DNA of 64,000 nucleotides from Taeniopygia guttata (lineage: Eukaryota; Chordata; Aves; Passeriformes; Estrildidae), in assembly GCF_048771995.1 (NCBI RefSeq), contig NC_133063.1, positions 10,460,063 through 10,524,062 on the forward strand. The letters run 5' to 3'. Shown in pieces: positions 27,440 through 50,834 of the stretch. Under the pieces are notes generated by a model that was not told the DNA's origin, made no database searches, and saw only the letters and a list, made by a program, of their open reading frames with translations. A program made the position numbers and the translations under genes. Every line of letters begins with the position of its first letter. The first letter of the stretch is position 1.

Positions 27440-28950
27440 AGCATTCCAGAGGCACTGTAGGTTGGAGCTGGTAACGGAGGGAGACGGTTGCCAAATCCAA
27501 ACCACACTAGAACGCCACACTTAAGAGGGACTTTCCATCTTTAAGAAAGAATGGCCAATTCAGAAGTGAACATAGAGCCTTATTCCATGGCTGACAAGGA
27601 AGGCAATTGTCCAACTTGAGGGTGTGTAGGACTTTTATTGTGACTCCAGCTCCAAGCTGCCTTTGGAGAAAGCAATCCTGAAGTGGTCCTGGTCATCTCT
27701 TCTGCTTTCTCGATTGCTTTGCTGCAAGTTTCCTTTGTTTTCATTTGAAAAGCCTTCGGAGTGGGGATTTAGATGGTGGGGGCCGATGTGATCTCTAGAA
27801 GGAATAACAGAAGTACAGTCATAGAAACAACTGCAGTATGAAACCAGCCCCACAGCCAATCCATTTCTCTCAAGTGTTTTGTCATTTCCAATGACTGGTG
27901 GGAAGCCAGGAGTCTAAAGGGAATCTAGGAAGCCAACTCATCTGCTCACTTTGGCCAGGCTAGCACACACTCCTTCTTCTGAGTCAGTGGCTAGGTTGCA
28001 GCCTCCTGCTGCTCCCAAAACAATCCCTGCTTTTGTCTTCACTCTAGAGGGAAGCTCAGGCAAAGCCCACCCAGGCCCTGCTGCCCTCAAAAGCAAAAGG
28101 AATGCCCCAAGCGCTCCCTGCCTGCATCCTAGCATCACAGTGGCTTCTGGAGGGAGTCCAAAATTTCTCTTCCAGCACCAAATCACGGAGGAACACGAGC
28201 TACAGCTTTTGCTGAGGCACACACACTATAATCCACTGCTGGATCGGACAAAGAATGCACAGGACATACTCAGCAGCTTTAGGCACCTCCTCAGCAGCCT
28301 GACAGCCAGCCCTCTCCCACAGCTCTAGCCTGGCTCTGCAGAGGACTTCCCGTGAGACCTCCCTCCTTCTGAGAGGAAGCTCTGGCTTTCCCATTCTCTT
28401 TGGGCCTGCATCACCATGCCTGCCCCCCTCAAACCTGCACTCTGGTAGCCTCTCACCACACCGCTCCCTGAAGACACAAAGGTCTCTCCAGCACGGTTTA
28501 CCAAGGGCCAGCTAAGAGACAGTGCCCCCCAGACAGACAGAGTGCGGAGAAACAGTGCCCATATGGAGCACAGAGGAGTCCAAAACAACACAGAAACTCT
28601 CTTCTCACAGCCTTTGCCTTTTGACTGGCTTTGCTTCAGAACTTTGCTTGTACAGCTTGCATGCTGGCAACTTCCTGCTTCATCTCCAGCAGCCTGTTCT
28701 CCTGCTCCTTCTGTACCTCCACCAGGAAGGTACAGAAGGAGCAGCTGTGTGCCAGCAGCTGCTGTGCCTCCAAACGCTGCCCTTCCAAGTCCTTATGAGG
28801 GGAGGAAGACACTTCCACATGAAGTGCCAGCCAAGCTCCCCAGATAATCAGTGGAAGCTTCATGCCGTGCACAACCCCACACCTGAAAAGGGCACAGCAG
28901 TAGTGACTTTGTGCCCTACAGCAATGCTGTCCTAAGCAGAAAGTCAAAAG
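27440..28950 (-). pseudogene. Remnant D: broken PAK3L copy lacking its kinase exons
   Basis: 28,790-28,715 matches the 24-codon coiled-coil exon 8 of gene C (D-L-E-G-Q-R-L-E-A-Q-Q..., donor GAG|GTACAG). 28,390-27,850 matches the region around exon 11 of gene C (38,230-37,690). Exons 9 and 10 are absent. The exon 11 relative, ending ...CTGCTGA|GTATGT at about 28,272, has an in-frame TAG shortly after its likely acceptor. Beyond 27,850 the sequence jumps to material resembling the intron before the last exon (27,650-27,790), so every kinase exon has been deleted. It sits directly downstream of gene C on the same strand. It cannot make a kinase. Confidence 0.7.
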
Positions 28951-29143
28951 CAGGATCAGCAGGTGGGAGAATAGGAGATGCCACCTTCCTTTCCTGCTCC
29001 CATGGCTGCCCGTTTCCTGGCCCCTCTCCCCTCAGGATTTCTACCTGTTCTCAGAGGTTCATTTCCCCAAGTGCTGAAGTGCTCCTTGCCATCTCCTTTG
29101 CTTCCTGCATGATTTTGCTGCAGGGATGACAGCAATCAGGCTG

Positions 29144-32100
29144 TCAGAAGAGGCTTAAGAGAGGCTCCGCTGACTGGAGAAATGGATGCTGCCCAAAGGG
29201 AAAAAGAAACAAACCAAACCAAATTAAAAGAGACAAAGGGAAAAGGAACCATTCTTTTCCAAACTGAGTTCCTTACAGGGTCAAGCTGCATTCCTCTAGC
29301 ACCCTGAAATACACTAACATAGGACTGAAGGCACCATCAGCACGTGAGCCTTCATGCCCAGGATGCTGCTAGCACAGGCAAACATGGCCCACAACTGCAC
29401 TAGTCCATTGCTCAAGGTGTCATCACTTGCTGGGATTTTTGTCCTGACAGCACTGTGGGATTGCTGCTTGCTGTCCAAAGGTTTTGTTCCTTACAGGAAA
29501 CTCAACAGACTTCTTCCAGCTCCTCTTTTCTACAGACATGAGCTATTTGAGTGTCCAAAAGAGATGTGGGGCATAAGACATTCCTCAGGAGACTCCCAAG
29601 AGCTCTGAAAAATATTGATCCCACGTGTTGTTCTCAGGACCACAGCACACGCGGGTTTTCAGCAGCAAGCCAGGAGCAAGGAGACAAAGCAGCAAGGCTC
29701 AGATGTGCTCAGCTCCAGCGTGCAGGAAGAGTAGGCTCTGCCTTGGCATGGCCCCCCACCTCCTGTGCTGGCCGGCATCTTCCTTGTCAGCAGGAACAGC
29801 CAAGGAAGTGGCCTGGTCCTCGTCTGCCACAAAACCGGGCGGCAAAGCCGCAAGGATTCTCATCTACTTGAGCGGGCCAGGCAGCACATGGGTCTGGCAC
29901 AAGTCCTGCTCAGCTGTCCCTGTTTGACTGGCAGAAAGCAGAGGCAGCAAGCTCAAAGAGTGGGGCAGGAGGGACAGGCTGAGTGCCCTGGGATGCTCAC
30001 AAGGAGCTCCCCCACAGCCCCCGCCTTCCCACACACCAATCCAGAAGCGCTGGGCAGGGACGGCTTTCGTCGAGTTCTTCAAGCCCACATCCCTGGCATT
30101 GCAATACTTCAGTTCCCTTTGCTAGCAGGTAAACCTGAATACACCACCCAAGAGCAAAAGAGGGCCACAGAAATGACCAGAAGGAGGGAGCTCTCCTCTG
30201 AGGAACAGCTGTGAGAGTTGTGCTGGTTTAGCCTGGAGAAGAGCAAGCCCCAAGGAGAACTTTCAATATTTGTAGGGGCTTCTAAAAAGGATGGGGACAT
30301 AGCTTTTAGTAGGGCCAATTGTAAGGGGACAAGGGTGAATAGTTTCAGCTAAAAGACACTCCATTCAGATTGGCTCTAAGGAAGAAACTGTTCCCAAGGA
30401 GAGTGCTGAAACACTGCCACAGGCTGCCCAGAGAGCTGGGAGGAGCCCCAAGCCCAGCAACGTTCAAGGTCAGCTTGGATGGGACTCTGAGCAGCCTCAT
30501 CCACTTCAAGATGTCCTTGCCAGTGGCTGATGTTTTGGACTAGATGACATGCACTGGTCCCTCCTAGCCACAAAGAGTCTTGGATCCTGCTTGGCTTTCA
30601 TTGGAAAAGCACCCAGAGTAGAGATTATTAGATGGGGGGGCCCATGTGAAGCTCTGGAGTTTGCCCAAGAAACAAACCCTGACAGGGAACAGCTGCTTGG
30701 GCTGCAGCCGCTTTGCCTTGTACCTGCAGAAGTTCCTCGGCAGAGCCTCGCCTGTCCACATCCATCTGCAGGCAGCAACCCAGAAATTCACACAAGCCAG
30801 AGGGCAGCCCGAGCTTGTGCAGATCTGGTACCCCTTGCTTGCCTATCAGGTAGCTAGCCTGAAGCAAAAGGAAGCACGAGAGTCTACGTGATTCTTCCAT
30901 ATCCTTCAGTGCTCACCTAGAGCCCATCTTTGAAGCTCCAGTCCGCAGTGTCAATTTCTTTCCTAGCAGAGGTTTAGAGATGAGCCTTCTCTCCCAAAGG
31001 ATAAAAGGCTCCAGTGCAGCCCCAGCTATTTCAAGCTGCAACAGGTCTTCCCTTGACAGCTGATCTGAGCCCCCGGGATGTTTTTAGAAAGAGGGCCTTG
31101 GTGGAAGCACTTCAAGTGGTGGGCATGGGATTTTGTCTAATGGACACGGACCAGAAGGACACCGCTCTCTGAGCGTATTTGCACCTTACCGTGTCACTGT
31201 TTTCCCGAATATAAGGAGCCTCTCCTGTGGCCATTTCTATTCCCACGATGCCAAGGGACCAGGTGTCCACTTTGGGGCCGTAGGGCCCTCTTCTCACCAC
31301 CTCGGGTGCCATCCACCACGTGGTGCCAACCATCGACCTCCGTTTACTCTGCTCAAGGCTGAGCAGACCACAGAGGCCAAAATCAGCTGAGGAGAAAAAC
31401 AAATGCTGCTTCAAGTAGGAAACCAAGGAAAAGGCTTTCTCAGGACGCCTACGTCTCAGAATGCAGTGCTGATTCCAGCTGGAAAAGCAGCTGGGCTCTC
31501 TTTCCTCAGGGCTGCAGCCAAGGACGTGGGCATTTGTCCACTTAGTTACCCCCCACGATTCCCACCGTGCCTTTTCCTCACTCACCGCAACTTTTACGCT
31601 GAAACTCCCTCCTTTTGGAAGGAACGCACACACAAACCAGAGTTACTCTTGCTACCTTGTTGCTCTCTAGACCACTCAGCACCTTACAGCTGCGCCCTGG
31701 GCTTGCAGAGCGCTCCCTGCCCTCTCCCCGGCACCACTGCTGGGCACCCGCAGCCGCTCCAAAGCAGCCCCACACCGCCTGCCCGGAGCGCTGCGCCTGA
31801 CCGAGAATACCCACCCAGCTTGACGGAGCCATCCCGGCCCAGCAGGATGTTTCCACTTTTGATGTCTCTGTGGATCACCTGGTTGGCATGCAGGAAAGCC
31901 AGGCCTTGCAGGCACTGGGAGAGAAAAAAAGAAACAGGAGGCCAAAAGTGAGCCTGATCGGATTTCGCCACACACAAAAGGAGTCTGCTCCTGAAGATTC
32001 ACCGATCTCAAAGGAGCGTGAGCGCTGGCAAGAGGAAGAGCTTGCTGCTGCCACACTAGGAGAGCAGGATCTTTCCAAGGGAAGGCATATCAGTGCTTGA

Positions 32101-35100
32101 GGGGGAAACATCAGTCACTGCTCCAGATTGTCCCCGGCAAAGCCAGTCAGAGCCATCCCTGATGCAGTGGATGCGCTCTCCCCATCCGCAGGACAAACAA
32201 TGCTTTGCCAAAAGAGGAAAAGTCCCTGCCTTGGCTACCAAGGGCATCACTGTCAGGTGGGAGATTGGAGGACAAGGGACAGCTGACTTGGAAGTAGCTC
32301 ATGTGTCAGTTTTCAGTAGCAAGCACCATGGTGGGTGCCATGCCATCCTTTGAAGTTGAGACCTGTGACAGACGAGTCTCTCTTTGGCTTTGCCACTGGT
32401 TTAAAACTTGGACACCAGCACCTTTGTGCTTACAGGCAAAGAAGGTATTGCAGAAAGGCAAAGGCTTGGAGAGGCAAAGTGCAGAACAGAAAATGACAAT
32501 GAAAACGAGACAGAGAGTTCAGTAATAGGATAGAAGAGTACAGAACAGACTAGAGTAAGAGCAGGGACACCGGCAGGCAGTTCAGCCCAGATGCTCTTTC
32601 CTTTCCGGAGCATAAGAGCAAGACAGAAAGAAAGCTCTGAGCATGGAATCACTCCCTTTGCAGCGCTTTCAAAGGACCAGTCTGTCCAAGCCATCCCAAG
32701 CACAAGCAGGACCCCTTACCTCCCGACACACTGTTGCTATGTGTCCTACAGCCAGACTTTTCATGCGGATCACATCAGCCAAGGAGCCTCCATCCATAAA
32801 CTCCAACACCATCAGGACAACCTCATTGACAAGGTAGCTGCAAGACAAAAGCAACCGTGTGGAGCTGAATGTGCACAGCTAAATTGCTGCATGGAAGAAA
32901 AGACTACAGCTGAGTTTTGTGTCCAGGTCACTGGTAAGTGAAGAGGGAATCAAGTGAAGACACACTCCATCGAGGCTATCCAGTGCTTGCTGTCTGTGCC
33001 GTCTAAAGGAGGAAGGCACATCCGTGGAAAAGGAGACGGTTTAGGTGGCAAGCAGGGGAAAGCGGCAGTTTTGTGACGCAAAGGTTAATCTGGAAGCAGA
33101 CACATCCCAGCAGCTGCTTCATCTTCTTCATACACAAATTGCACCATTAACTCCAGCAGCAAGGAGGCACAGTCTCACAGCTTTTACTCAGGGCAGGTGG
33201 GTGTGCAGCATTGCCAACACCCTTTGGAAAACCTTGCAGAAAGGACAGTCACAAACAGGAAAAACAATTTCAAACCGGACAAATTATGTCTCTCCTAGCC
33301 TAGTCTTTTGGCATGCAAGGCAATGGAAAGCAGTGCAAACAGTGCAAGGGAAATCATTTCTGTGATGCTTTCTCAGCACTTCTCCTCCAACACTTGGAAA
33401 AAATCCCGCCCAAAACAGCAGAACAACATGCAGTGAGTGAACATACATGCTGCTGGCTTAGTAAGAGAGCCACGTTTCTGAGATCAAGCTTCAAGCTATT
33501 TCTGCCAGGAAGAATTTGTGGGGACAAAATGCAATCTCCTCCCAGGCCTCATGCAGGAGTAGATTGATGTGAATTGAAAATCCATTTTCTGCCAGAATAC
33601 TGACCTTTCTAGGTAGGTGACAATATTGGGGTTCTTATATTTATCCATGACCAGGATTTCCTTCAACACATCCTCACAGCCCTGGTGCTGGAGATCAAGT
33701 ACCTTTATGGCCACCTACAATGACATGGAAAGCCATTAGGAGCAGACGAGACGAGAGCCTCTTTCTCTGTGCACTCACGGGCCTGGATGCCTTGTCACCT
33801 CGGTGGAAATGGACACTAAACCATCAACCACAAAGTGCTAACAGCACTCTTTGCACCTGCAGACTCCTCCAACACACTTTGTTTATCACTACTATTATCA
33901 TTTACACGTGTTTTGCAAGCTGAAGTAATTTTGCTCCAGCCAAGATAAATTGAAACCACTGGAAATACGTTAGCATTTCTAGGGGCTTTGACCAGCCTTT
34001 CAGAGATGGCTGCCGTTCTTGACTGTGTGCCAAAGTAAACACACACATACATACATGACAGGGAAAATGCTGTCCAAAAAAGGACTCCAAAGCGACTCAA
34101 AGGAAAGTTACAACCCTAGCACATCCTAACTTCTTCACTTTGGGTTTTGCAACTCTGAAGAACAACCTGGAACACGGTTTACACCGAGTAATTATTGTAA
34201 TTTGTACTTATTTAGTGGGTTTAAAAATGAATAACCCTTCTGTGCTACGCTATGGATGCACCCCAGGTCATAAGCAGGGCTTAGGGCTTTTGGACACCTC
34301 CTCGACCTCCCTCCAAGTGCAGTTTCTGAGCACAGCACCGCGGGTGGAGAAGGAACTACCAGGAAGATGGAGTTGTATTTGCTGAGAGCCAAAAACGAGA
34401 ATTCAGGACTCTGAACTCATAGCCCCACAAAATAGCAGGACTCTCCAAGGCACTTCCACGTCAGTTCAGTACAAATAGCATCTCTGTAGTGGAATGTCTC
34501 TGACGCAGGATCAACAAAACATTGTATTAATTAAGGCTCTTCATCAATTTCTTCCCACTGATCTGTGCGTGTGCATGTGCGTGTGTGAACTGGGTTCCCT
34601 AGGACTGAAAGGCAAAACTGTGCTCCAGTAAAGATCTCTCCTCCTTGAGGTCCTGCATTATATTTTCAAGCTGAACCACGTGGTGGAAAACAATGGGAAA
34701 TCCTTTCTGTGTCTGAACCTGGGCTTAAGAGGAACTGGGCCGGAATGACGGCTCTTGCCATCAGCTAATCTAGGAACATTTATCCAGTAAGTCCAAGCCA
34801 GCGCGTCCTTCTCGGATAGACACCACCGCCATTCTTGCATTCACTCAGGTAGGGAGGAAAGATAAAGTCTGTCCAAAAGTCATTTTGCAGCCCACCTCTG
34901 GACAGGCTGCTTCTGCGGGACAGCCTTTGCAGCAAAGTCAGGTGGCCCAAAGCTTTGGCCATGGATCACATCACAAGGGAAAGCACTCAAGGGCTGCAAA
35001 ATCTGCATGGGCTCTTGGCACTTACCGCTCGTCCTGTGGCAGCGTTGAAGGCCTTGTAAATGGTTCCAAACCCCCTAGAAACAGAACAGTGGCAAGAACA

Positions 35101-38100
35101 GAGAAGTTGTTCAGTGCTGAGAAGGAAAAGGCAGCCCAGGCAGGAGCTCTCTGCTGCCTGCAGTGTCTCTAAAACACCAGGGTCTGTCCGCTCTTCAGCC
35201 AATGGCCCAGCAGCCCAGCAGCCCTCTGCCATGCAGAGTGTCCAAGAGAAAAGCTGGCTGCAACAGGAAGAAAAAGGGCTGCTACAAATCTCAAATGTGC
35301 ACACTAGATTATGCACGCAGGGGTTTTCTTTGCCTTTCCCTTCTTGTGTCTGTGCCTGTGGGGTGCCTTTCCAGGCAATGAAACATACAGTCCTGCGGGG
35401 CCATCTCAACGCTCTCTTTTAATCCTGCCTGCCAAACTCAGGCAACACTATTATCTTATCTTTCTGACCACTTTCTTATCTTCCTGACCACTGAATCTTG
35501 TTTTCAGCAAGATAGTGGAAAGCAATGCTACTGAGAGCTGTTATCTGACAGCTGCCAGGTGGGAAGCTGCTCTCTCAGGTTTCTCTTCCCTCATGAGTGT
35601 GGCCAAATTACCTTGAATCATACAAAACCATATCTCCTGGGAAAACAGGCAAACTAGTGCCACATGTTTGAGGGCTTGCAGGAGGGCTTCCAGGACCTGC
35701 TGCTTGAGGCAGGCAAGACATTGCCAGCATCCAGTTATCTTTCATGATGCCTTGTACTGCCTCAGCACTGAGACAGGGACAATCTGAAGCCAGGGTCTGA
35801 AGATGCTTGCAGCTTGCCTGACTTCCCACGTGGTACCGCACCACCAAAATCCCTGGCCCATGGTTCTGTAGAAGCAAGCGTGGCTGCACTCACCCACTGC
35901 CAAGGAGTTCCCATCCAGTGTACTTCTTCTCTGGATCTTCCTTCCTCACCACACGCCCTGAAAGAAACCAAATGCAAGGAGCAAACTTCAAAACAGGGAT
36001 CCTGACGTCCAGGAGATCTGAAGGCCAGCTCCACTCTCTGGGGCTCTGAGCAATTTATGGTCCCTCGGCTAACAAGAGCATCAACAAGAACAACAGCAGC
36101 AGCAGCAGCCCCAGCAAGACAGGCAGCTCGGTAGCACGCCTGGCCTGCACAGAGTCTCTTCTCCACACTCCTTTGAAGGGCTGCCTTGAGGGGAAACTAA
36201 GCCCATGGGAAAACCATCAGAGCAGACAGAGACCAGAAAAGAACAGGCCCCAAGGCAAGTGGTTGTCATCTACAAACAGGAAGGAGGGCTGAAAAATCAG
36301 GACACTTCATTGTCTTGGGAAGAAACACTCTCTTGTGAGACTCAACAAAAGGTTTCATACTTCCAAAGTTCCAATGCACCCTGGCATCTGGATGAACTTT
36401 GAACAGCTGCTTTTTGCAGAGCAGAAAGAATATTGCAAAGTCAATTCCAGGAGAGAAGGGCACCTTCTCTACCTCTCAGCACTTGGCCTAAACAATGCCT
36501 TGACCATTTTAGAGAACAGCAGCACATGCTATAACCAAGAACAATGGCTCTAAGAATTAGGACTCTCCTCATTTATCAGCAGGATGAGTTCTGGAGATGA
36601 CTTTGCCCGTTCCCCATTTAGTGAAGAACTACAAGTGCTTGTCTTCAGCCTGGGCTGCAGCAGTCACTAGCACTGGGCTCAGCCCCTTGAACACCACCCA
36701 TGTGCCCCATCTCCCCAAACGGGCGCAGCCAGACGGGTAACAAGGACAGCGCTGTTCCTCAGGCGCTGCCGGGACACAGACACCTGCACAAATGAGATGC
36801 TGACCCTTCCACGAGTCCAGGCAAAGCTGCAGCAACGGGACGGCAGCTGAAACCTCACAGCTAAGGAAGGCTCCAGCCCCTGCAGTCACACCAGCTGTCA
36901 GTGGCAGGGCAGGTATGACAAAATGCTTGGCAAAGCCCACAGATGGCCACTGACAGCCACTCTGAAGAAGCTAGAGCCAGATCAAGGCCTGTTACAAGCT
37001 GTTGGCCCCACTCAAGACAGAACATGATTGTCTTTGGCCTCAGACCCACGGAGGAGTAGATCCATCCACCTTTTGTCTGAGGGCGCCTGATGGCAGACAC
37101 AAAGTAAACTGGCCTCTGTTCTGTACCTGAGTGGTTCTTCTCTGACAGCACTGCACTGGCAGCTGTTACCAGCTGCAAGGAGCAACTCACTTGTACTGCA
37201 CAATCAGCAAGGCCTTGGTGTGCTTTCCGAGAGTACCATCTGTGCAGGGATTGAGGCCAATGCTTAGTATTCCTGCGGTATTTAGCAGCTGGGCATTAGC
37301 AGTGACAACATGCCTGCTACCAGAGGAACATGCAGCAGAGGGGCTGCAGGCTTCCTCCTGAGAATTGCCTGCAGGGCACTTCTATCTGACTGTGCCCCAT
37401 AGATGTGTCTCTTTGATGCATCTTCCAAAGCATACAACTAAAATATCAAACAGGAATTGTAAAAAGAGTATCCTGGTTTTCTTCTTTTGGGGCTCTTTCA
37501 AAACAGCTCTTCCTCTCTGATTCCTTGAGATAGCTCTAAGAATACAATTTCTTAATTTTTAGGGCATACTGAAAAGATCTCTTCCTCTCTTATTTGTGCT
37601 GTCACCTGCCATTCTTTTCAAGGAGGTCACGCTAACCAAACAAAACCAACTGGAGAAGGAATAGAAGTACTAAGAGTCATAAGAACAACACCAGCATTAA
37701 ACCAGCCCCACAGCCAATCAACTTTGCTCAAGTGTTTTGTCATTTCCAATGACTGGTGGGAAGTCAGGAGTCTAAAGGGAATCTAGGAAGCCAACTCATC
37801 TGCTCACTTTGGCCAGGCTAGCACACACTCTTTTTACTGAGCCACTGGCTAGGTCGCAGCCTCCTGCTGCTCCCAAAACAATCCCTGCTTTTGTCTTCAC
37901 TCTAGAGGGAAGCTCAGGCAAAGCCCACCCAGGCCCTGCTGCCCACAAAGGCAAAAGGAACGCCCCAAGCGCTCCCTGCCTGCATCCTAGCACCACAGTG
38001 GCTTCTGGAGAGAGTCCAAAAATTCTCTCCCAACACCAAATGAGGAGGAACATGTGCTACAGCTCTTGCCGAGGTACACACACTGTAATACACTGCTCGA

Positions 38101-41100
38101 TGGCACAAGAAATCCCCAGGACGTACTCAGCAGACGCAGGAACTGCTCCTCTCTCTCCTGGCTTGAGCGGGGAGAACTGCTCATCCTTGGGTTTTCAGGC
38201 TGTGGAGAGGGGGCTTCTTCCCAGGATGCTGCTGCAGCGACAGCTTTGATGGTAGCTCCTGCATTCATCTGGGACAAGAAATTTGCTTGTGTCAGAAAGG
38301 TGCCTGGCACAGATGCCCCAGACAGAGCATTTCAAAGGCAAGCACTTAGGAACAGCACTGGGCCTGGGCTGCAAGCTGAGCTGTCAACTCTTCCACCTGC
38401 AGTCCAAGCCAAACAAGCACTCTGAGACTACAGCTTGTCACAGTCAGCCGTAGTGGAGACTGCGAAAGGGAAAGAACAACTTTACACTTCACTCCCTTCT
38501 GAGGACTGCATTCACCATGGACAGGGACAACTTGCCCAGAATCTGCGTGGGTCACCACGCTCACCTAAACAGACCCCTCCAAAAACAAAGCCAGCACTAA
38601 GAGGCCAGCAGAAATATATTCCCAGGATTGCTGGCCCACCGGCCAAAGCACTAGCCCTGCTGCCCAGGGCAGCAGCTGAGATTCAGCAACCCACTAAGTG
38701 TCCTTCTGAGCAGCTGCCACGGAGAGCACAGAGCATGGCAGTCAGAGACATTGGTCCCATCCACCTGCTGCTCTGCAGGGGAAAGGCAACAAGGGCAGAG
38801 ACCACTTGTTGCATGACTGCACTGCTTCCTCCTCCTTCATTCACCTGCTTTCGTCCAGCCAGCCTGTACTGCAGCAGGATCTTGTGCATCCTTTGCACTT
38901 CTTCTTTGTGCCTCTTCTCCATTGCCTCCATCTTCCTCTGAGCTTCCCGCAACTCTGCCTGCAGCTTGTCCTTGATATTCAGGAAGATAAGAGGAATCTT
39001 ACTGGCATCCGCAATCTCGTTCAGGTTTCCTCTTTTGCACTCTCAAAAGCACTTGTGTTCAGCCCCTTCCTTCTGCTTCTCTACCCAGCTCTAACCCTTC
39101 CATCCTAGCTCTTCTTCCTGGTGCTCAGCGCTGCAGCCTGCCAGGCTCTGTGCTTCCAGTGCCTGCAATGGTCCTTGCCTCCCCTTTCCTCACGTCTCCA
39201 GTTCATGTCCCCATCACTGCCCTTCCAAGCTCTTCTACCTGGCTAGTCAGGCTCACCTGTCCATTCTGCCGCTCCTTATTCAGCTCCTGCCTCAGCTGCT
39301 CTAGCTGCTGCTGCCTTTCATTTAGATCTCCCAGCAGCTGGCGCACCTTATCATCTAGAGCAGCCTTCTGGCTCTGGAGCTGCACAGAAACAAAGAGAAG
39401 ACGGCTTTCAACGTCCCACACACCACTTGTGTGGCAACCAAGACTGATGTGCTCATGCCTTCCAAAAGCAGTTTCTTCTCATTCCTGTATTTACCAAGGG
39501 CTAGCTAAGAGACAATCCCAGACAGACAGATAGTGTCCAGAGCAGCTGTGCCCATAAGGGGCCCAGAGGAGTCCAAACCAACACACAAACTCTCTTTTCA
39601 CACTCTGTGCCTCTTGACTGTCTCTGCTTCTTTGCCCATCCAGGTTGCATGATGGCAATTTACTGCTTCATCTCAAGCAGCCTTTTCTCCTCTCCCCTCT
39701 GTACCTCTGCCACCAAGTTGATCCATTGCTCCAGCTTCTCCTGTGCCTTCAAACTCTGTTGTTCCAGCTTGCTTTCCTGATGAGTGGAAGAGACACGTCC
39801 AGATGAAGTCCCACCAATGCTCCCCAAAGGAAAAACAGAAGCTTCATCCCTCCAACAACCCCCGCACCTGAAGAGGGCACACTAGTGGCTTTGTGCCCTC
39901 CAGCACCTGGGAGGAGCTCCAGCACGGCTAAGGAAAGGAGAGGTCACCTTCCTTCCCTGCTCTGATGGCTGCCTGTTTCCTGGGCCCCCCCTCTTCAGGA
40001 TTTCTGCCTGTTCTCAGAGGCTCTGTCCTCAGATTGCCCTGCCCTTTGGTCAAGGAAAAGCTGCAGATGGACTGCAGGATGAGGACGACAGCAGCACCTC
40101 GATGACCCAGTCACAAGACAGGCCACCAGCTGAAGTACCAGCACCAGGAGGCCTGTTGCAACTGCTTCAGGCTCCAAGGGAAGACCTCTGTCCGCTGGGG
40201 AAGGACAGAAAGCAAGGAACCCAGTTGCTGGGACTGCAGCTGGCAGCAAGGTCAGCAGCAGTCTGCTGCATGGCACCAGGCTGTGGGGAAAATGCTGCCC
40301 CTTCGCTGCCATGCTTTGGGTGGTGACCACCCAGCCTCCTGGGGAACTTGGCTTATGGCCATGCTGAACCTGTGGCTGCATCTACTGTCCCAGCACTGTC
40401 CTCTGGGTCTTCACAGGCCTTCAAGTAGGAGCTCTTGAACCCCTCTGCTGCCTGGCCCAGCAATGTGTAGCCTACAGCAGATGCTTGAGACCATGTCACA
40501 TACTCAGGCTGCTCTTCTGCTAAGCCAGCCCTTCAAAGTCGCTGGAAAACTTCAGGGATGTACTGTTTCTTACCAGGTTTTGCACAATCTTCCTTTTCTT
40601 CGCTTCCTCAGCAGCTTGCCAGAGTCTCAGAGCCTTGCTGCACTGCTCTTCTGCCCAGCGGAGCTGTTGAGCCATGTCTTCACATTGCTGCTTGCTGAAA
40701 GATCTTACAGCCAGCAGCTCACGACGAAGGCCCCTCACATCCTCTGCAAACGTGACACACGGCAACAGTCAGAGACTGCACAAGCAGAAGAATCTGCTGA
40801 CCTTAAGCCCCTTCAGTTTCAGGCAAGGAGGAACCTGCCCTCAGCTCCTTCACTCCTCACAAGCCCTGCAGACAGAGCTGCCTGTGGCACGACTGCACTG
40901 GCCAGGGCCATCAGCAGAAACAAAGCGCACGAGGCTCTCACCGAGTATCAGCTCCTTGGCCTGCCTGGCTGTGCGCACTTGGGCTTCCAGGCAGCTCCTG
41001 GCCGTCTCCAGCTCCGATACGTGCTGCTGAGCCTCCAGCAGGCTGCTTTGCAGGCTCTCCTTCTCTGACCTGCAAGTTGTGAAGATGGAGAGCAATAGTT

Positions 41101-44100
41101 CCTGGCACACAGGGCCAGTTTCTCCAGTGTGGCACATCTTAAGATGTGCCTTAAGATCCCTGTACCTTAGGCTGGAAAACAGCTTGCATGGAAGCTCAGA
41201 CAAAGCAGGACAATTTTACCACTTCAAATAGCAGAGCAGGCCCCTCCAGGTGACTGGGAAGCCTTGCCTCGTGTCCTAGGCCAGCACAGAAAGCCCAGCT
41301 GAGTTTGAGCTCAGTGGACAAAGCTCAAATTGCTGTTGCCTGACTTATCACACACGGGTGGCTGTGCCCACAAAGTCTCTGCAAATGAGCAAAAGGCCAG
41401 CCGCTGCTCACAGCCCTGAGCTCACCAGCACTTCCAAGTCACTCTGCAGGGGGATAGAACAGCGTTCTCCTGGCTGACCCGTCAATGTTTCATGCTATTC
41501 CTCATGTGCATATAGGTACTTGGCTTGCCAGGCACTCTCTAAGGAAAAGGGACTAAAGGAATTCACCAAACGATAGAGTGAAACCTCCAGCTTCTAGCAG
41601 CATGAGTAGGAATCCTGAACTAGGTTTTTATCTGAACAAGAACTGTCTAGGAAAAGGAGAGACACACAGCCATCCTGCCATTTAAATCATTGGAAGATCA
41701 TGAACAAGAACACTTGCTACCTTTCTTTATGGCTAACTACGCCAGCAGTGCCCAAGTGATTTGGCACTCTTTAAAAAAAGGAAGAGGCACCAGCCAAAGG
41801 GACCTTGACAGGTTACAGAAGTGGGTGGACAAGTGGGCAAGTATCAGTGCTCAGCAAGGATCCCTAGAGACTGTTGAGAAGTCACAAGACCTTTCCTTGC
41901 TGCTACTGCTGCTGCTGCTGTTGCTGCTCCTATTAAGCTACTCTAGGTCCTGCATCCTACTCCACAAGAGTGAGCTCTCAAGGGTTGCAAGATTTGCAGC
42001 ATGACCCTCCATCTTCAGCTGAAGGGTCAGCACCCGACTCACAACATTCACATGTAAGAGCCTTGAATTCTGAAAATCCCCCGTCAAACTATTTGGCAAG
42101 GAAAAACTGATGTTCAGATGCAACAAAGGAGAAAGCAAAACCAGAGGGAAACTTCCGATTTCAGGAAACATCTGCACCGTTTCCCTTGTACTCAAGTCAG
42201 TGCCAAGTTGGTTTGCTTTGCACTTGTCACAGGAATGTGCAAGAGGTCCCAAGCAGGTGCCCAAAAGAGCTTGGAGAGCTTGAGTTGGCAGAAAAATCAC
42301 ATTCAGATCAGAGTATCGTTTTCTTTTTCTCATGTCTCTTTGCCTCCCTGTCTGAGAAACATCAGGAGAGCACACAGGAGGCGGTAAATCCTGACTGGTG
42401 GTAATGCTCACCAGCTTTGTAATTACAGACTTTCAATAATGTCCCACCCTGGGTCTCCTCCCTGCCTTTACCTGGCTTCTGCCAGCTGCTCTGAAACGCC
42501 CCGTAGGTCCCGCTCCGTGGCTCTCAGTCGGGCTTCCAGGGCAGCGTTCTCTTTCACCAGCGCCGCCTTCTCTCTGCACACCTGGGACAGTGTCTGCCCT
42601 GGGAGAGAGAACTCCTGCCCCAGCTTCTCCAGGCCCCTGTGGGCTGGCCGCTGCGGGCGGCAAACCTGCAAGAGGGGGCAGCATTTTTCAAGTGGAACAA
42701 CAACAACAGCAACAACACAGGCTCGGTCCTAGCTTGCTGCCAGAGGCAGCATTCGGGGGGGGGCGGGTCTGGCTAGGACAAGTCCCTCTCCCCACAAGTG
42801 CTGCCTAGGAGGAAGGTGAGCGTACCTTTGGTGCCACCAGAGGAAACGCTTCCTGCAGTAGATCCCTCTGAGGCGGCGTTTCCACCGGGGTCAGTTCTGC
42901 CACTTCAAACACCCTCTCTAGGGAGGAGTGGCGCTTTCTCTCAGATGCAGCCAACTCCTTCCATCTGCAACAAGGGGACAGACAAACAAGCCTTTAAGTG
43001 CAACACAGTCGCCTTGCAAAACCAGCACTACATACCATGCCCCACATAAGGCATCTCAGGCCCTTCCAACAGCCCTCTGCTTCCACCTCAAGAGATGGCT
43101 GCAATTCCCTCCCTAGACCCGCATCTCTCTTTGTCATTCCTTCAGGTGAAAGAGTCGCCACTGAGGAAGTCAAACAAGCTTCCACAAGCCACAGAACACT
43201 GCCAGAAAGCTCAGGTACTCTCAGCATAACAGCTTCCCTGCCTGCTAGGCCCAACACTCCTTTCTGATGCAGTGAGCACTGGACTTGCAAAAGCTTTTCT
43301 TTGGCTAAGACACGCTTGCCAAGTCTAAATGAGCAGTCCCACAATTGCTCCTGCTTTCACTAGCGAAACAAAGAATGAGCCTGCAAGTTACAGCTTGGGG
43401 AGGAGGTGGGTACGATTTTCCAGTTCAATAAGCAAAGGATCCCAAGATGGTTTAGGCTGGCAGAGACCCCAGGAAGCCTCTAGCCCAGAGTTCACCTCCA
43501 AGCAATTGGGGTCAGCATCTGGCCAGGCTGCTCAAGTCTCTATCCACCTGGGCCTTCCAAATTTCAAGGGTGGAATCTGCACATGCTCTCTGAGGCACTT
43601 GTTCTGCTGCATGATTGTCTTTGCAGGTCAGTGCTTTGCTGTCCTTAAGCCCAGCCTGAACCTCCCTTGCTTTTACTCTGGTCTAGTTCAGAATGCTTTT
43701 TGTCAAGGTTCGAGAAGCGAGTCCCAGGAAGCAGCTTTGCTCTAGGTCGGTCTGCAGCCAGACCTGCCCTGGGCTGCCTTCTCCCGTCTGTGCTGAGCAA
43801 GTCAAATAGTGAAAAGCCAAATTTGTTCTTTGGTCCTGGGCCTCCTAAAGCCCAGCAAGGCCCACCCCTGCTCAGAGAAAGTGAGAAAGCTTAACACGCA
43901 CCTCAGCTCCCGGGCGCCGCGCACTCTAGCCGTGCTCTCGTGCCGCTCCGCCTTTCCTGCCTGGACCGAGGAGTCCCGACTGGCGAGAACTTCTCCTAGC
44001 GGGACCTGCAAGGATTGGGCAGGGAAAAAGCACAAAGCAGCAATGAGGAGGAGGGAAGTTGGCTCCTGACAGCTGGCAGAAGCAGCAAGCAGAGACACAG

Positions 44101-45961
44101 CTCACCTGAAGGCAAAATCTATTGTGTGGGGCCGTTTAGGCGGTGTTTAGGTGGTGTTTATGTCCCAACTAACTCATGAGTTGCTCTGGAAATGTCTGAG
44201 GAGAAGCAGGGAACATTTCCCTGCCCAGCTCTGGTAAACTGGCTTCCCCTCAGGATTTCAGGCCTTGGAGAGCAGCCAATAGGAACTGCATTCCAGCCCT
44301 TTACAGACAGACCTTGTCTCTGCCATGCAGAGCTGCTCAGAATTCTTCTCAGCAAACTTGGGTCATGTCAAAGTTTAGGGTGTAGCTGCAGTAGTGACTG
44401 CAGCTACTTAGATAGGCCATGGAGAGGGGTAGGTCCCTGCAGGCAACAGTGGCTCCTCCATACCCCACAGGCCTGTGAACTGCACCTTAGCACCTCTCCC
44501 TCTGCTGCCAGCAGGGAGCCCGCACAGACTCTGCACAAAGGGGCTGACTTTTGCACCAGTAGCACTAAAGGGCATTGTGCTACCGCTTATCTCACAGCAC
44601 GGGAAGTTCAGAGTCCCTGAGAGTGCCAGGAAAATGACGCCTGCATATGAAAGTTCAGATCCCATTTCCCACGCGTCAGTGGCTGAGCTGAAGAGCTAGG
44701 TCATGGCAGGACTCCAGCCCACATCAGCCATCTTCAGCCACTGAGGGCAAGTGCTGCCTGCTCAGAAACTTGCATGCAGCTCTGCACTGCACCACAGCTT
44801 TGCACTGAAGGAGCTATTTCAGCCTGCCTACAATCAGCATGCAGCCTCCTGTCTGCAGAGCTTGACTTTTATTAGTGAAAACCTCTTCAGTGGAAAAGGA
44901 GGAAACGGATGGAATCCTTTTGGAAGTGTTCCTGCACACATTGACTTTGGGGACTTTCTTTCGGCCTGCCAGGCTGCTGCTCTACTGCAACAGGCCAAGG
45001 CCACAGCTTTCTCCACAATCCTCAGACACCAGGAATGCCAAGGGTGCCCGTCCCACTCACCGAAGCGCGCACTTGACTCCTTCCTCCTCGGAGTCGACCT
45101 GCCGGGAAGAAGGGAAAATGAACCAGGGGCTGTTAGAAATCTCTCTGTGCTGAGGAGTCCCACAGAGCAAGTCCAGCCAAGCGGAGAGCGTTTTCCTTTC
45201 ACAACATCCCTCTGGGAGCAACACTTCTTTAGCACAGCCAGCGAGACTGCAGGCCACTACCCTAGGCTGTGTCTACCTTTTGCTCAGCTTTGCCACTAAG
45301 GAACCAGAAACTTTGCCGAGAAGTTGCAAATTCTTCCTTAGCAGTCCCTGCCTGCATTCGAGCCTGTTGTCCAGCCTGCAGCTAAAGCAGCTGTTTTCTC
45401 CTCTCTTTCCTGGACTTGCTTTTTCTTTTTGTAAATTGCACGCAGCATGTCCCACGCGGTTGCTGTAAACAATTCCCCACCAAAGCTCCCACCAAACCCC
45501 TCTTAGCGCTTGCAGTTCTGTTGGGACACAGCACAGGCCCAGCTCCGGGCTTCAGGAGCACGCACCAGCTGCTCGGCACTTTGCCCTTCAGCGCAAAGCC
45601 AATCCCTCTTGTAGCACACACTGGAGTTGCACTTAGACAGGCACATCCTTAAAGGATGGAATGCAGAAAAAATGCTGCTTTTCCTCAGTTCTGGAGAGAA
45701 CCAAACCGTTTTTAGAAGGACGCCTGCAAATCTTGCCCAGTCTGCATTTGGAAGTTCCCACACCCTGCTAGGCCAGAGACAGCCCCTTTTTAGGTGAAGC
45801 TGTTGAAAGGAGCTTCACCAAACAGATGGCATCTTTATGCCATTTTTGTTTCAATGTGCTGCCCCAAGGAAAAACTTGGATTTACCAGTCAAACGACGAA
45901 AAGCTTTCTGAGGAGCCACCAATGAAAAGGCGCTGCTGACTGCTCTACGGACTCGCTCCAT
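29144..45961 (-). CDS. Gene C: CEP250-like coiled coil fused to PAK3-like kinase (19 exons, 709 aa)
   Basis: Exons (minus): 45961-45886, 45098-45061, 44005-43902, 42964-42826, 42665-42472, 41069-40942, 40743-40574, 39776-39705, 39379-39257, 38970-38845, 38268-38127, 35957-35894, 35074-35026, 33714-33605, 32837-32720, 31914-31815, 31386-31190, 30858-30724, 29188-29144. All joins keep phase; total 2,130 nt with no internal stop. Exons 1-2 match the gene A start (MERVRRAV...). Exons 3-10 (residues 39-390) replace the acidic exons of gene A and are largely coiled coil resembling C-Nap1/CEP250. Exon 11 corresponds to the Ser-rich exon 5 of A, and exons 12-19 encode the kinase: VAIK Lys 479, Glu 494, HRDIKSGN (Asp 568), DFG Asp 586, WMAPE. 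There is no CRIB. The C-terminus stops early in the last exon. Alternatives: separate CEP250-like and PAK3L genes, the latter starting at the ATG that opens exon 11. The structure is inferred without transcript data. Confidence 0.8.
30140..30575 (+). mobile_element. CR1 LINE 3' fragment in the last intron of gene C
   Basis: The plus strand carries recognisable sense CR1 3' phrases: GGTTTAGCCTGGAGAAGAG, ACTGCCACAGGCTGCCCAGAGAG, TTCAAGGTCAGCTTGGATGGG and TTGGACTAGATGACATGC...GTCCCTCCT. It is antisense to gene C and lies between exons 18 and 19. Confidence 0.85.
30724..35957 (-). other. Kinase-domain exon block of gene C (exons 12-18)
   Basis: Seven exons of 64, 49, 110, 118, 100, 197 and 135 nt encode the PAK-type kinase fold. 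Compared with gene A (64, 49, 113, 118, 100, 197, 138) two exons are one codon shorter. The gatekeeper region reads LMVLEF instead of LWLVMEY, so Leu probably replaces Met. The activation loop reads [11 protein letters not shown]: Ser at the PAK1 Thr423 position and Thr at the GTPYW proline, as in gene A. The kinase DxWSxG motif is present as DTWSLG. Confidence 0.9.
41898..41930. repeat. Short imperfect CTG repeat in intron 5 of gene C
   Basis: About ten CTG-type units, interrupted by CTA and TTG. Like the intron 2 repeat of genes A and B it is CAG on the gene strand, but it is shorter and impure. A further CAG run (AACAGCAGCAGCAGCAGC) lies at about 36,090-36,110 in another intron of gene C. 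Confidence 0.8.
43430..43640 (-). mobile_element. Diverged CR1 fragment in intron 3/4 of gene C
   Basis: TTTAGGCTGGCAGAGACC, CCAGGCTGCTCAAGTC and GGCCTTCCAAATTTCAAGGGTGGAATCTGCACATGC...TCTCTGAGGCACTTGTTC follow the antisense CR1 3' pattern (gather-type phrases AAGGATGGAGATTCCACAAC...CTCTGGGCAACCTGTTCC in family members, split here). The copy is old and lacks ends. Confidence 0.5.
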
Positions 45962-46411: not shown

Positions 46412-46766
46412 TGTTATTTCTATGTTTTTCCCCCCTCCACGCAGCCCCCTGAATGAATCCGACTAGCTCAGAGATATGGGGCTGTGAGGGGAGGAAATAG
46501 CATGAGAGGGAAAAGTATTCAAAAGAGGCTCCTTACCCAGGGTGTTGGAACAGCTCTCTTTATTCTGTGGTGTCCATGGAGAGCAGGGCAAAAGAGGAAG
46601 AGCAGGAAGTTTTAGGGGTCTATATAGGTTTTGGACAGGGTGGGCACTCCTGGCTCCCCGCCAACCCCGTTGGGGCAGGGGGGAGGATTCAGGGGTTATC
46701 TTGATCAGAGTCACAGAGGCCCTAGGAAAGGGGGGACAAAAGGGTGTCCAGGAGCTCACCGTAACA
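46412..46766 (-). repeat. 3' LTR of the ERVK-like provirus
   Basis: 355 bp with TG...CA ends, nearly identical to 53,099-53,455. On the minus strand it has a TATATAG box (about 46,627) and an AATAAA signal (46,564-46,559), so U3-R-U5 runs toward gene C. By eye the two LTRs differ by about 7 substitutions plus small indels, about 2%, suggesting an insertion a few million years old if a typical bird neutral rate applies (inference). Confidence 0.95.
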
Positions 46767-46782
46767 CCTCCCCCTTATTTGT
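46767..46782 (-). other. Polypurine tract of the provirus
   Basis: On the minus strand AATAAGGGGGAGG runs directly into the TGTTACGG start of the 3' LTR. This is the expected position and composition for the plus-strand primer. Confidence 0.85.
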
Positions 46783-46815
46783 TAAACAAGGTTACAGGAA
46801 TTCACTGGGCTCAAT

Positions 46816-47100
46816 TCAACCCCAAGTATGGGTTTCCCACCACCCCATGTTGGTGGCGTGGTCAGGCCTCCTCAGGTTAGCCAACTCTATGTGGTTGACC
46901 TCTGAGGTAGAAGGTATGAGGCCCTTGATAGCTTTGAAAATCAAGTGACGCAGAATCCCGAATGCTAGGGTTACAAAGAACAGAATAACAAAGACTAACA
47001 AAATTGATCTAACTACAGATGTCCACCACCCCGTGAATCCCCATCCCTTGAACATTCTCTTCAGCATTTGCAGGATGACAACTTGCATGGGGTTCATCAC
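46816..47100 (-). pseudogene. env: env remnant: transmembrane anchor and tail only
   Basis: An open frame of 94 codons contains an aromatic-rich juxtamembrane stretch (GWGFTGWWTSVV), one long hydrophobic segment (LLVFVILFFVTLAFG) and a short tail ending near the polypurine tract. This fits the C-terminal end of a retroviral envelope TM subunit. Only about 95 bp separates it from the end of pol, so the whole SU part, fusion region and most of TM have been deleted. No receptor-binding or fusion function can remain. Confidence 0.8.
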
Positions 47101-47194
47101 AGGGTTGAGTGGAAGGTAGGTTTTCTCTAAAAGGGAAGAACAAACATTTTAAGAACATGTTAAAGCTTCTGTTTCTGCCGGAAGGAATTCCTGC

Positions 47195-49897
47195 CTAGGA
47201 ACTTTCTTCTTCTCCCATCCGGCGGCGTCTTCTCTTTGAAGCATCAGATACTTGCTTCTTGTCCCCTTCTGTTTGACCTGGATTCTTGGGGACAAAAGGT
47301 TTCACCCACTTCTGGGGAATCCACCGAGGGCCTGAGGGAGTAGCTACACACGCATAGCCACGACCCCAGGTTACAAGTTCATAGGGACCCTTGGTTTCCC
47401 AAGTTTCTGGATCCCTAATCAAGACCGGTGGATGCTGAGACAATTTAAACTGCTAGCCACTGTTAAAGTGACGTACAACCGGTGGACTCATATTTTCAAA
47501 TGAACAATTCAGAAAATTGATAGTAAACATAGCTTTACAGAGCTTCTCTCGTGGAGACATCCACGGAGCTGAGCTGTTTTGTTTTTTCAATACCTGCTTG
47601 AGCGTCTGGTGTGCACGCTCGACTACAGCTTGACCTGTGGGGGAGTGGGCAATGCCAGTCTTATGTTCCACTCCCCACTGCTGGAGAAATTCTAGGAACT
47701 CCTTGGATACATACGCTGGGCCATTATCTGTTTTGATCGTTTTTGGCACCCCCAATACTGAAAATGCTTGCACTAGGTGTTGTTTGACATGTGCAGCCTT
47801 TTGTCCTATATGAGCAGAGGCATACACTGCACCTGAGAATGTGTCCACGCTTACATGAACTCATTCAAGGCGACCAAAACTCTGAATGTGTGTGATGTCT
47901 GTCTGCCATACCTCACAGCTGCTAAGGCCTTTGGGGTTTACCCCCATGCCCAGCGATGGCACGGCCTGGAGCTGACAATTAGGACAGTTGGTCACAATGG
48001 CTCGGGCCTGACTCCGTGTTAGCTGGAACTGTCGAATCAAACCTGGTACGTTCTGGTGGTAATGCTCGTGACTCAGCTTTGCCTGTTGGAAAACATCAGG
48101 GAGACTTGCCTTTTCGACTGGTGCAGCGAAGGAGTCTGCTTTTCGGTTCCCCTCTGCAATCTCACCTGGCAAATCAGTGTGTGACCTCACATGCATCACA
48201 AAGAATGGATGTTCTCGGTGCGAGATTTAATAAATTAGCCTTGAGAGTAACCTGAAGAGATGTTCATTTTCTATTTCTCTGAGCACAGCCTGCTCCGCCC
48301 TGGACACTATACCTGCCACATAGGCAGAGTCTGTCACCAAGTTGAACGGCTCGGAAAACCTCTCACAAGCTCTCACCACTGCAGCCAGTTCAGCCACCTG
48401 GGGGGATCCCTCCACAAGCTCAATATCAGCTTCCCAATGCTAAGTCTGTGGATTTCTCCAAGTCATCACCGACTTATGGGAAGCCCCAGAGGCATCAGTG
48501 AACACTGTGAGAGCCCTGAGCGCCCTCCGGCTCCTTTTCTCTTGAGGAATCAGGTGGAATTCCTCATTGAACAACTTGTGAGACGGGGCATGGACTGATA
48601 TTTGTCCCCTATAGCTGTCCAGAGATAGCTGGAGACTGGCACTGCTCTGGAGCAAATGCTCAAACATCCCTTTAGTCAGTCTCTCAGGAGAGTTCCTTTC
48701 CTCCTTAGAAAGCCTGACTGGAAGGTGAATACATGCAAAGTCACACCCTGCTAATTCACACAACCTCACCCTGGCCTTCTGAATCAGCTTTGCTATCAGC
48801 TCTTGTGGCCTAGTGATGGTTTTGGATCTTTGGAACGGTAGGAAAACCCATTCTATGATTAAGAGTGGGTCCTTCTGCCCCTTGATCCATTGGAAAATCA
48901 ATCCATGCAGGTGTGGCAGGTTTCCTAGAACAATGAACTGGAAAGGCAGATTTGGGTCACACCTGTGTGCCTGCCTTTCTGACAAGGCCTTCTGTACCTT
49001 TTCGATTGCTGTCTTTGCCTCTGGAGTCAGTTCCCTGGGGGAGGTCAGCTCCCTCTCCCCCTTCAATAAATTGAAAAGAGGTTCCAGATCTTCATTCGTG
49101 AGGCCTAGCCAGGGCCTTACCCAATTTAAAGACCCACACAGTGAGTGGAGGTCTGCTAGTGTTCTGGGGTTGCAATTTATCTCCAATTTCTGTGGGACAA
49201 TAGTCCTTGCAGAAATTTCCAGGCCCAGGTATCTCCAAGGTGGCATTCTTTGAACTTTGTCTTCCTGCAATTTGAATCCAGCAGAGGTTAAAACTTTAAC
49301 CACTAGGTCAAGTGTATATTGGAGTATAGAGTCATTGGGACCACACACAAGCACGTCATCCATATAGTGTAGGATGATGGCATCCTTTCTCTCTGCACGT
49401 ACTGGAGACAGCAGTGCTGCTACATACTGTTGGCATATGAAAGGGCTGGATTTTAGACCTTGGGGCAAAACTTTCCAGTGGTAGCGCTTCATCGGGGCTT
49501 CTCTATTGACCGTGGGAACTGAGAATGCAAACCTCGGGACATCTTCAGGGTGCAATGGAATTTGGAAGAAGCAGTCCTTTATATCTAACACAGCCAATTT
49601 TCAGTCCTGGGGAAGCATAGCTGGACTCGGCATCCCCGGTTGGAGAGGTCCCATGTCCCCCACAATTTTGTTTATCTCTCTGAGATCGTGGAGCAATCTC
49701 CATTTGTCCTTCCCAGGCTTCTTTATTACAAAGACTGGGAAATTCCAAGGGCTGTCTGTTTCTTGCAGGTGTCCTTGAGCTACCTGCTCCTCCACAAGTT
49801 TTTCAAGCGCCTCGAGTGTTTCTCTACTCAAAGGCCACTGTGCTACCCACTTTGGGGTGTTATCCAACCACTTTAACTTGTGGGCATGGCGCTCCAC
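47195..49897 (-). pseudogene. pol: pol (reverse transcriptase, RNase H, integrase), five in-frame stops
   Basis: One reading frame carries the whole gene, interrupted by stops at 49,601-49,603 (TGA), 48,440-48,442 (TAG), 48,227-48,229 (TAA), 47,861-47,863 (TGA) and 47,453-47,455 (TAG), with no frameshift seen. Recognisable parts in order: RT fingers (FVIKKPGKDKWR), catalytic YMDD, RNase H (FTDASG, TDSAYVAG), the integrase zinc region (HEHYH...CPNC), integrase catalytic Asp (WQTDITH), Asp (KTDNGP) and Glu (VVERAHQTLK), and the integrase C-terminal domain (PYELVTWGRGYACV). Inactive as it stands. Confidence 0.93.
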
Positions 49898-49902
49898 AGT
49901 GG

Positions 49903-50834
49903 CTACTCCCGAAAATCCTGGGGTGTCTTAGGAATGATTAATTGGACTCCCCACTGGGACAGGGTGTCTCTCCCCCACAGAGGAGCCTTATAGTCTGCCA
50001 CAAACAGGCAAACACTTGCTGATTTCCCGTCAGGTCCCTCAATTTGCACTACATTTTAGAAATTTCTGCCAATGTAGTTCCTCCTATACCCTGAAGTTTG
50101 CCTGCCACAGGTTGCAATTCCCAGTGTGATGGCCACATGGTTTTGGGTATCACCGTGATGTCTGCACCTGTGTCCAGAACACCTTCCACCTGAAGGTGCT
50201 CTGACCCATGTGCTAGGTTGCATGCCATGGAGGGTTTATCCTCTCCTATTACTTCCGCCCAGTAGACTTCTGGAGATTTTCCTTCTACTGTGATTTCTAC
50301 TGGGACAGGAATGGCTTGTGCCAGAATTTGCCCCTTTTCTAGATAGAATGGAGGGTGCAAGCAACGTGCCAACAGCATAAGGCTGGATATTTTTCCCTTA
50401 CTAGTACTGGGAACTATTTCAATCTCAGGAGGTGTGTATGCTGTGTCCCCAATAACAAAATACTCACTGTCCAGTTCCATATCGTACGCCTGCAGGTCTT
50501 GTGAGTTGTTTGGCAGGTCCACTATAATGACTTTCCAATCAGTGTTTCTGAAATGAAATCCTTTGGCAGTCACTAGACGTGGCCGGCCTAGTGGCTGCCA
50601 AACCTTGTTAGTAATACATTTCACATTTTTATTTTTCTCTCTCCCCCCATCATAGTATCCACCCTCCCCCTTATTTGTTAAGAGAGAGGCATTGTCACAT
50701 TTGTGTCCCACTATATTTATATCTTTGCGCGTAGCAGTGGGCACGCGCTGTGCATTTAGTTTTTTTGTTTGTTGATCTGTCTCTGGTTCTGGTTCTGAGG
50801 ACAGTTCCTGGCAAAGTGTCCTGGTTTCTTGCAA
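49903..50834 (-). pseudogene. pro: pro region with a frameshift (dUTPase-like part and aspartic protease)
   Basis: The frame overlaps the end of gag, as expected for a frameshift-expressed betaretroviral pro. The first part (about 50,600-50,280) has a weak dUTPase-like look (KGQILAQAI), which I am unsure of. The protease active site is VLDTGADITVI, with the flap GIGGTTLAEI. The frame stops at 50,049, and the protease C-terminus (LWGRDTLSQWG) continues in another frame to a TAG at 49,903-49,905, so a single-base indel has broken the enzyme. Confidence 0.85.

Follow-up and report, generated by a model that had tools for sequence, protein, structure and literature searches.

We analysed a stretch of 64,000 nucleotides of zebra finch (Taeniopygia guttata) DNA, hereafter the window (NCBI RefSeq assembly GCF_048771995.1, contig NC_133063.1, positions 10,460,063 to 10,524,062 of the forward strand), which carries two genes related to the PAK3L family: a gene in which a CEP250-like coiled coil precedes a PAK-type kinase domain, called here the fused gene, and a neighbouring PAK3L gene without the coiled coil, called gene A (Table 1). 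A preliminary description of the locus had joined 19 minus-strand exons into one frame of 709 codons for the fused gene, and all of these exons were found, with the borders and phases given in Table 1. It had also likened exons 1 and 2 to the plan of gene A, and their lengths and phases are those of gene A, with which intron sequence is shared as well. The fused frame is not a product of chance, since the zebra finch UniRef protein P0001 matches it with 99% identity across 95% of the query, with 7 residue differences in exons 3-19. The predicted product begins with a short PAK3L N-terminus, continues with about 270 residues of CEP250-derived coiled coil and a PAK3 hinge, and ends in a kinase domain of PAK3 type that lacks CRIB.

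Table 1. Coordinates of the fused gene, the insertion edges and the neighbouring features, as positions in the window.
Feature	Position	Strand	Remarks
Fused gene	29144-45961	minus	19 exons bounded by GT donors and AG acceptors, phases compatible; open frame of 2130 nt (709 codons and a single stop)
Exons 1-2, N-terminal PAK3L exons	45886-45961 (76 nt), 45061-45098 (38 nt)	minus	lengths and phases as in gene A (76 and 38 nt)
Exons 3-10, CEP250-derived block	38845-44005	minus	entry and exit both in phase 0
Exons 3-6	43902-44005, 42826-42964, 42472-42665, 40942-41069	minus	
Exons 7-10	40574-40743, 39705-39776, 39257-39379, 38845-38970	minus	
Exon 11, PAK3-derived linker/hinge	38127-38268	minus	PAK3 counterpart AAAPAPAKEATTPQPENS; score reached by 0 of 2000 shuffles
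Exons 12-19, PAK3-type kinase domain	29144-35957	minus	stop codon at 29144-29146
Gene A, neighbouring PAK3L without coiled coil	12249-19906	minus	13 exons, 466 codons plus stop
PAK3 linker exons of gene A	18308-18430, 17657-17779	minus	both 123 nt, phase 0 to 0; the hinge exon then follows
Final stretch of intron 2, homologous to gene A	44420-44794	minus	68% to 17902-18277
Right insertion edge, where homology to gene A resumes	38268-38352	minus	79% to 17429-17513; continues into exon 11
Cut-off CEP250 exon	38358-38396	minus	unused in the fusion frame; AG acceptor in front; CEP250 counterpart VEELTCQLAASEE
Second copy of gene A, exons 1-8	59047-63472	plus	in the inverted repeat arm that reaches the window end; 97-100% identity per exon
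Remnant of another fused copy	27797-29060	minus	just downstream of the stop codon of the fused gene

The kinase half was correctly assigned in the preliminary description. Exons 12-19 find PAK3 as their best match in the PDB (6fd3, E 1.6e-97), followed by chains of PAK1 and PAK2, with PAK4 at 1.3e-61, and judged by these matches the domain is closest to PAK1-3 (group I PAK). The CRIB domain, stated earlier to be missing, was indeed not found: the 709-residue protein has no match to the CRIB/p21-binding domain PF00786 among the Pfam families listed up to E 1. The window gene retains all five catalytic residues (Lys, Glu, the Asp of HRD, Asn and the Asp of DFG), as do all 30 rows that cover them, out of 34 coiled-coil-bearing tree rows from passerines; one row has Ser instead of the DFG Phe, and two rows depart at the loop's first glycine. 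The residue equivalent to the activation-loop Thr of PAK1, which we take to be T423, is Ser in the window, in gene A and in 32 of the 34 coiled-coil-bearing rows, the other two having Ala and Gly.

Exons 3-10 had been described as a coiled coil resembling CEP250. The resemblance holds, as these exons are colinear with the bird CEP250 P0046 exon by exon, whereas the coiled coil proper is confined to exons 5-10 (residues 120-390). On P0046, exons 3 to 6 correspond to residues 458-485, 488-523, 659-722 and 723-764, and exons 7 to 10 to residues 767-822, 824-846, 888-927 and 931-975. The scores of exons 5, 6, 7, 9 and 10 were reached by none of 200 shuffles and those of exons 3 and 4 by one each, while the match of exon 8 is weak (22 of 200). 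The donor of exon 8 lies within an ancestral CEP250 exon, the remainder of which here runs into an in-frame TAA. Exons 1, 2 and 11 gave no match to P0046, their scores being reached by 92, 61 and 196 of 200 shuffles. A hydrophobic period of 3.5-3.6 residues runs through exons 5-10, bearing out the coiled coil of the preliminary description (0 of 1000 shuffles at 3.5); the period was unremarkable in exons 1-4 (83 of 1000 shuffles as strong) and in the hinge (654 of 1000), and none stood out in the kinase half (607 of 1000).

The comparison with bird CEP250 that the preliminary description had in view gave a consistent answer, the nearest bird relatives of the coiled coil including many records named CEP250 or CEP250-like, some of which carry the Pfam family CC_CEP250. 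The coiled-coil search was limited by candidate length, such that full-length mammalian CEP250 could not appear, and the best non-bird matches among those listed were rootletin and CROCC2 (30-43%); the name CEP250 therefore rests on the bird records and Pfam. Pfam also gave a CENP-F leucine-zipper match in the coiled coil, which is weak and below the cut-off (26.7 vs 34.5 bits). Solved structures yielded no match to the coiled-coil exons up to E 0.1, nor to the CEP250 P0221 up to E 0.01.

Exons 5-10 correspond to residues 835-1151 of the 1800-residue bird CEP250 P0220, which has a rootletin domain (PF15035) at 7-119 and CC_CEP250 (PF25774) at 1508-1588. PF15035 is also present in P0221 and was not found in P0257; PF25774 was found in neither P0221 nor P0257. 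Neither family is among the Pfam families listed for the fused protein, and by these matches the insert is the middle of CEP250 with both terminal domains missing. The preliminary description had seen in the coiled coil a built-in centrosome or basal-body address, by which the CEP250 segment would bring the kinase to the centriole linker. The CEP250 derivation of the segment speaks for such targeting, but for human C-Nap1 it is the C-terminal domain, residues 1964-2442, that reportedly associates with centrosomes, binds Cep135 and is phosphorylated by Nek2 (PMC4038944). Since both terminal domains of CEP250 are absent and centrosome association is reported for the C-terminal one, the centrosome address is unsupported, and we consider it unlikely, although the middle part might itself carry a location signal. 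In comparison with CEP250/C-Nap1, a member of the rootletin family, the fused protein thus shares an exon-by-exon colinear middle segment and differs in lacking the N-terminal rootletin domain and the C-terminal CC_CEP250.

Going beyond the preliminary description, exon 11 was recognised as PAK3 linker and gene A as the form that lacks the coiled coil, and the DNA itself shows one of the insertion edges. The left edge lies between the final intron 2 stretch, which matches gene A to 17902, and position 44005. On the right, a cut-off CEP250 exon, the next after exon 10 in CEP250 order, ends five bases upstream of the point where homology to gene A resumes. Its score was reached by 3 of 500 shuffles with 60 residues of P0049, by 2 of 500 with 60 residues of P0257, and by none of 500 when the query was cut to the first 24 residues of P0049; this last length was chosen afterwards. 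A PAK3 linker lies upstream of the coiled coil in P0035, P0007, P0008, P0030, P0034 and P0130 (0 of 2000 shuffles each), six proteins picked because the linker was visible there, and a PAK3-like hinge follows the coiled coil in the window gene and in Pipra, the two tested (0 of 2000 each). The shared flanking introns, the edge at 38352/38358 and the linker or hinge on both sides argue firmly for the insertion of a genomic block of CEP250, introns included, into an intron between PAK3-derived linker exons in phase 0. The fused gene resembles PAK3 (group I) in its kinase domain and in the linker sequence that flanks the insert at either end, and is different in having no CRIB, a CEP250 block inside the linker and Ser in place of the activation-loop Thr. 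An origin by retrocopying was rejected, as introns here interrupt the coding parts of both CEP250 and PAK3 descent. Because Corapipo P0130 retains a CEP250 stretch (460-656) most of which the window copy lacks, and Corvus P0298 seems by eye to extend beyond the insertion edge seen in the window, the comparison suggests that the original insert was larger and was trimmed differently afterwards.

The distribution of the fusion was examined in 48 passerine rows, comprising 46 public PAK3-like proteins and the two genes of the window. A CEP250-type coiled coil precedes the kinase in 34 of these rows, lies only after it in 8 and is absent from 6, two of which (P0121 and P0124) show by eye short, sub-threshold residues of the coiled-coil exons. 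The order of parts in the window gene recurs in other passerine PAK3L proteins, with the coiled coil before the kinase in 33 of the 46 public ones. They come from 21 species, of which we take 15 to be oscine and 6 suboscine; the NCBI families of three suboscines are Pipridae, Thamnophilidae and Tyrannidae. Our protein searches, with length-limited candidates, covered the best 120 of 665, 6982 and 128 matches, and among the best 120 per search and within those length limits no non-passerine bird protein joined both parts. Non-passerine birds among the kinase matches listed had PAK3 with PF00786, and the 8 kinase-bearing proteins among the coiled-coil matches listed were all passerine. The lineage-specific family proposed in the preliminary description is consistent with this, joined proteins being confined to passerines among the matches listed.

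In the coiled-coil tree, which is unrooted, 22 PAK3L-type rows grouped in a single clade (100/99) that places Pipra and Neopelma beside oscines, and 12 passerine CEP250 rows formed a separate clade. The tree contains 53 named rows of the 81 covering the region, which the named rows P0131, P0114 and P0264 do not cover. A kinase match of more than 60 bits was present in 18 rows of the PAK3L-type clade (17 public proteins and the window gene); of the remaining four, P0034 has a kinase match of 23 bits and the records of P0030, P0033 and P0044 show no such match, and these four were labelled fused by eye from their PAK3L-like ends. At the level of genomic DNA and database records the fusion is real; it is old within passerines, and the DNA shows how it originated. 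In Vidua chalybeata, the CEP250-like P0277 and the fused PAK3L P0004 are on contigs that share one length, 76199654, probably the same chromosome.

We favour, with a probability of roughly 0.6, an explanation in which a CEP250 block was inserted into a PAK3L gene in a single event, the fusion was amplified, and the encoded kinase is autoactivated through oligomerisation of the coiled coil. The fusion would have arisen once, before the split of oscines and suboscines, and been amplified thereafter. Through its coiled coil the protein would form a dimer or a higher assembly in which the kinase domains are kept together, and the assembled domains would phosphorylate each other's activation-loop serine, rendering the enzyme active through assembly instead of through Cdc42 or Rac. 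Its place in the cell would be set by partners of the coiled coil and not by a known centrosome signal, and the testis would be the likeliest site of action. Oligomerisation-driven autoactivation is, in our analysis, the likely function. Kinases with an oligomerising helix include ROCK and EML4-ALK; in contrast to these and to NEK2, the case described here is a CEP250-PAK fusion and is inherited across a bird order. NEK2 is alike in combining a kinase with an oligomerising helix, and one paper states that it autophosphorylates its activation loop upon leucine-zipper homodimerisation (PMC4038944). For trans-autophosphorylation of PAK1, our literature search returned no paper.

The evidence on this explanation is divided. 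Oligomerisation is predicted from the helix and the heptad pattern, and activity and location are putative. Since the AlphaFold model of P0001 (26 sequences) is poor overall, with a mean predicted local distance difference test score (pLDDT) of 64 and a predicted template modelling score of 0.31, only its helix content was used, namely a helix at 126-324, within which the block 131-320 has pLDDT 70-94, and a second, less confident helix at 332-381 (pLDDT 39-71); these helices speak in favour. Between the kinases of the fused gene and gene A, nonsynonymous divergence (dN) is 0.31 and synonymous divergence (dS) 0.70 over 270 codons, which also counts in favour, but the resulting dN/dS of 0.45 averages over two paralogues and is silent on the coiled coil. 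Other observations weigh against the explanation. In the kinase tree the coiled-coil-bearing rows are not one group: the coiled-coil label changes 5 times, with at least 4 changes forced by well-supported branches, and gene A and three other coiled-coil-free rows lie near coiled-coil-bearing Corapipo and Corvus. A single gain of the coiled coil was thus not obtained from the kinase tree alone, whereas the coiled-coil tree gives one clade; since 5 changes are needed, the kinase tree would be accounted for if some copies had lost the coiled coil or if copies had recombined with one another. No PAK3 linker exon was found before the coiled coil in the window's fused gene; as other passerines have a linker there, this exon has probably been lost from the window copy.

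The zebra finch models also disagree with one another. By eye, P0001 has a different first exon in place of exons 1-2, and P0123, which has 99% identity over 80% of the query and comes from a record on an 82 Mb contig, skips exon 10. P0003 carries the first 390 residues of the fused gene with two differences, followed after the coiled coil by a gene-A-type hinge and kinase with 97% identity to gene A over 279 columns; it may stem from splicing that reads through into the following kinase cassette, or be a copy that arose by recombination. Set against window positions 12249-17429, P0003 has the same coiled-coil head on a gene-A-type kinase, a possible alternative kinase cassette.

Furthermore, fused proteins are known as database records and gene models, and prediction pipelines can chain neighbours, as the 8 of 48 rows with a coiled coil only after the kinase would suggest for tandem copies. 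Two adjacent genes, a CEP250-like fragment and a PAK3L, might on this account have been chained by gene prediction. Three rows of the coiled-coil tree without any kinase match fit this account, and so does the stop codon that follows the cut-off CEP250 exon, because of which an mRNA using that exon would terminate there. Against it, exons 1-2 upstream of the coiled coil share their lengths, phases and intron DNA with gene A, a PAK3 linker lies upstream of the coiled coil in other species, and the same order recurs in 21 species. Since gene-A-like exons, shared intron DNA and, elsewhere, a PAK3 linker precede it, the coiled coil is contained within a PAK3L gene, and we regard chaining of two genes as improbable.

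The zebra finch PAK3L family is reportedly that of Kong et al. 2010. A published account describes PAK3L genes as kinases that derive from PAK3, lack the 5' exons encoding the N-terminal regulatory domain and are amplified on the Z; it reports their expression in testis and other tissues second-hand, and mentions intronic content specific to clusters as well as a coiled-coil 171-like gene duplicated along with them (PMC13060935). The fused gene is like these genes in being derived from PAK3 and in having no N-terminal regulatory exons; it differs in its CEP250 coiled coil, which the available part of that account does not mention inside PAK3L (PMC13060935). Judged by titles and the starts of abstracts, none of the papers listed on PAK3 and PAK3L in zebra finch and passerines or on CEP250 fusions describes a CEP250-PAK3L fusion, and the one that combined CEP250 and PAK3 was a cancer paper.

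Ampliconic Z arrays and testis expression, as given for PAK3L genes in that same source (PMC13060935), would also suit a scaffolding or selfish product, that is, a Z-linked amplified testis gene maintained by meiotic conflict whose coiled coil titrates CEP250 or other partners. Fast divergence points the same way, the coiled coil being 55% and the kinase 62% identical to that of Pipra. Nevertheless, in the oscine rows compared, except P0001 and P0003, the kinase is better kept than the coiled coil, which argues that kinase activity is selected, and we consider a scaffolding or selfish product improbable.

The CEP250-PAK3L fusion offers a clear example from nature of exon shuffling giving rise to a kinase of new architecture, in which the donor is named, the acceptor position located, one edge visible in the DNA and an insert-free sister gene adjacent. 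Passerine PAK3L, described as kinases missing their regulatory domain, thereby gain a candidate replacement for it; whether oligomerisation compensated for the lost Rac/Cdc42 input becomes testable, and there is a handle on the reason for the family's amplification on a sex chromosome. A more speculative extension, which we hold to be rather doubtful, is that the passerine PAK3L family, or most of it, was founded when CEP250 exons entered a duplicate of PAK3. PAK3L copies would then descend from the fusion kinase, with the coiled coil lost again in some of them. Splicing could likewise join the head to another kinase cassette further downstream, of which P0003 would be an example, and the array would then amount to interchangeable kinases that share one oligomerising head and act in the male germ line.

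The remainder of the window shows how the locus is arranged. Inverted repeat arms at 14946-24129 and 54803-63997, 96% identical, flank the fused gene, and each contains gene A in whole or in part; this is a palindrome-like ampliconic layout. The two PAK3 linker exons of gene A look like a tandem duplication. The remnant of another fused copy combines DNA resembling intron 11 (27797-28276, 90%) with DNA resembling the exon 8 region (28497-29060, 73%). A retrovirus-like element at 46412-53455 has minus-strand open reading frames, a repeat pair (46412-46766 and 53099-53455, 97.5%) and, by eye, a 6-base target duplication.

The fused gene could be read as a decaying pseudogene copy within an amplified array, since fused fragments lie next to it, copies vary and the retrovirus-like element starts only 451 bp upstream of its ATG. 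This reading is unlikely, given the 2130-nt open frame, the intact splice sites and catalytic residues and the nearly identical P0001; in addition, frameshift issues are reported to affect only 4 of 200 PAK3L copies on the zebra finch Z (PMC13060935). The retrovirus-like element has the same orientation as the fused gene, and its terminal repeat could serve as a promoter for the fused copy.

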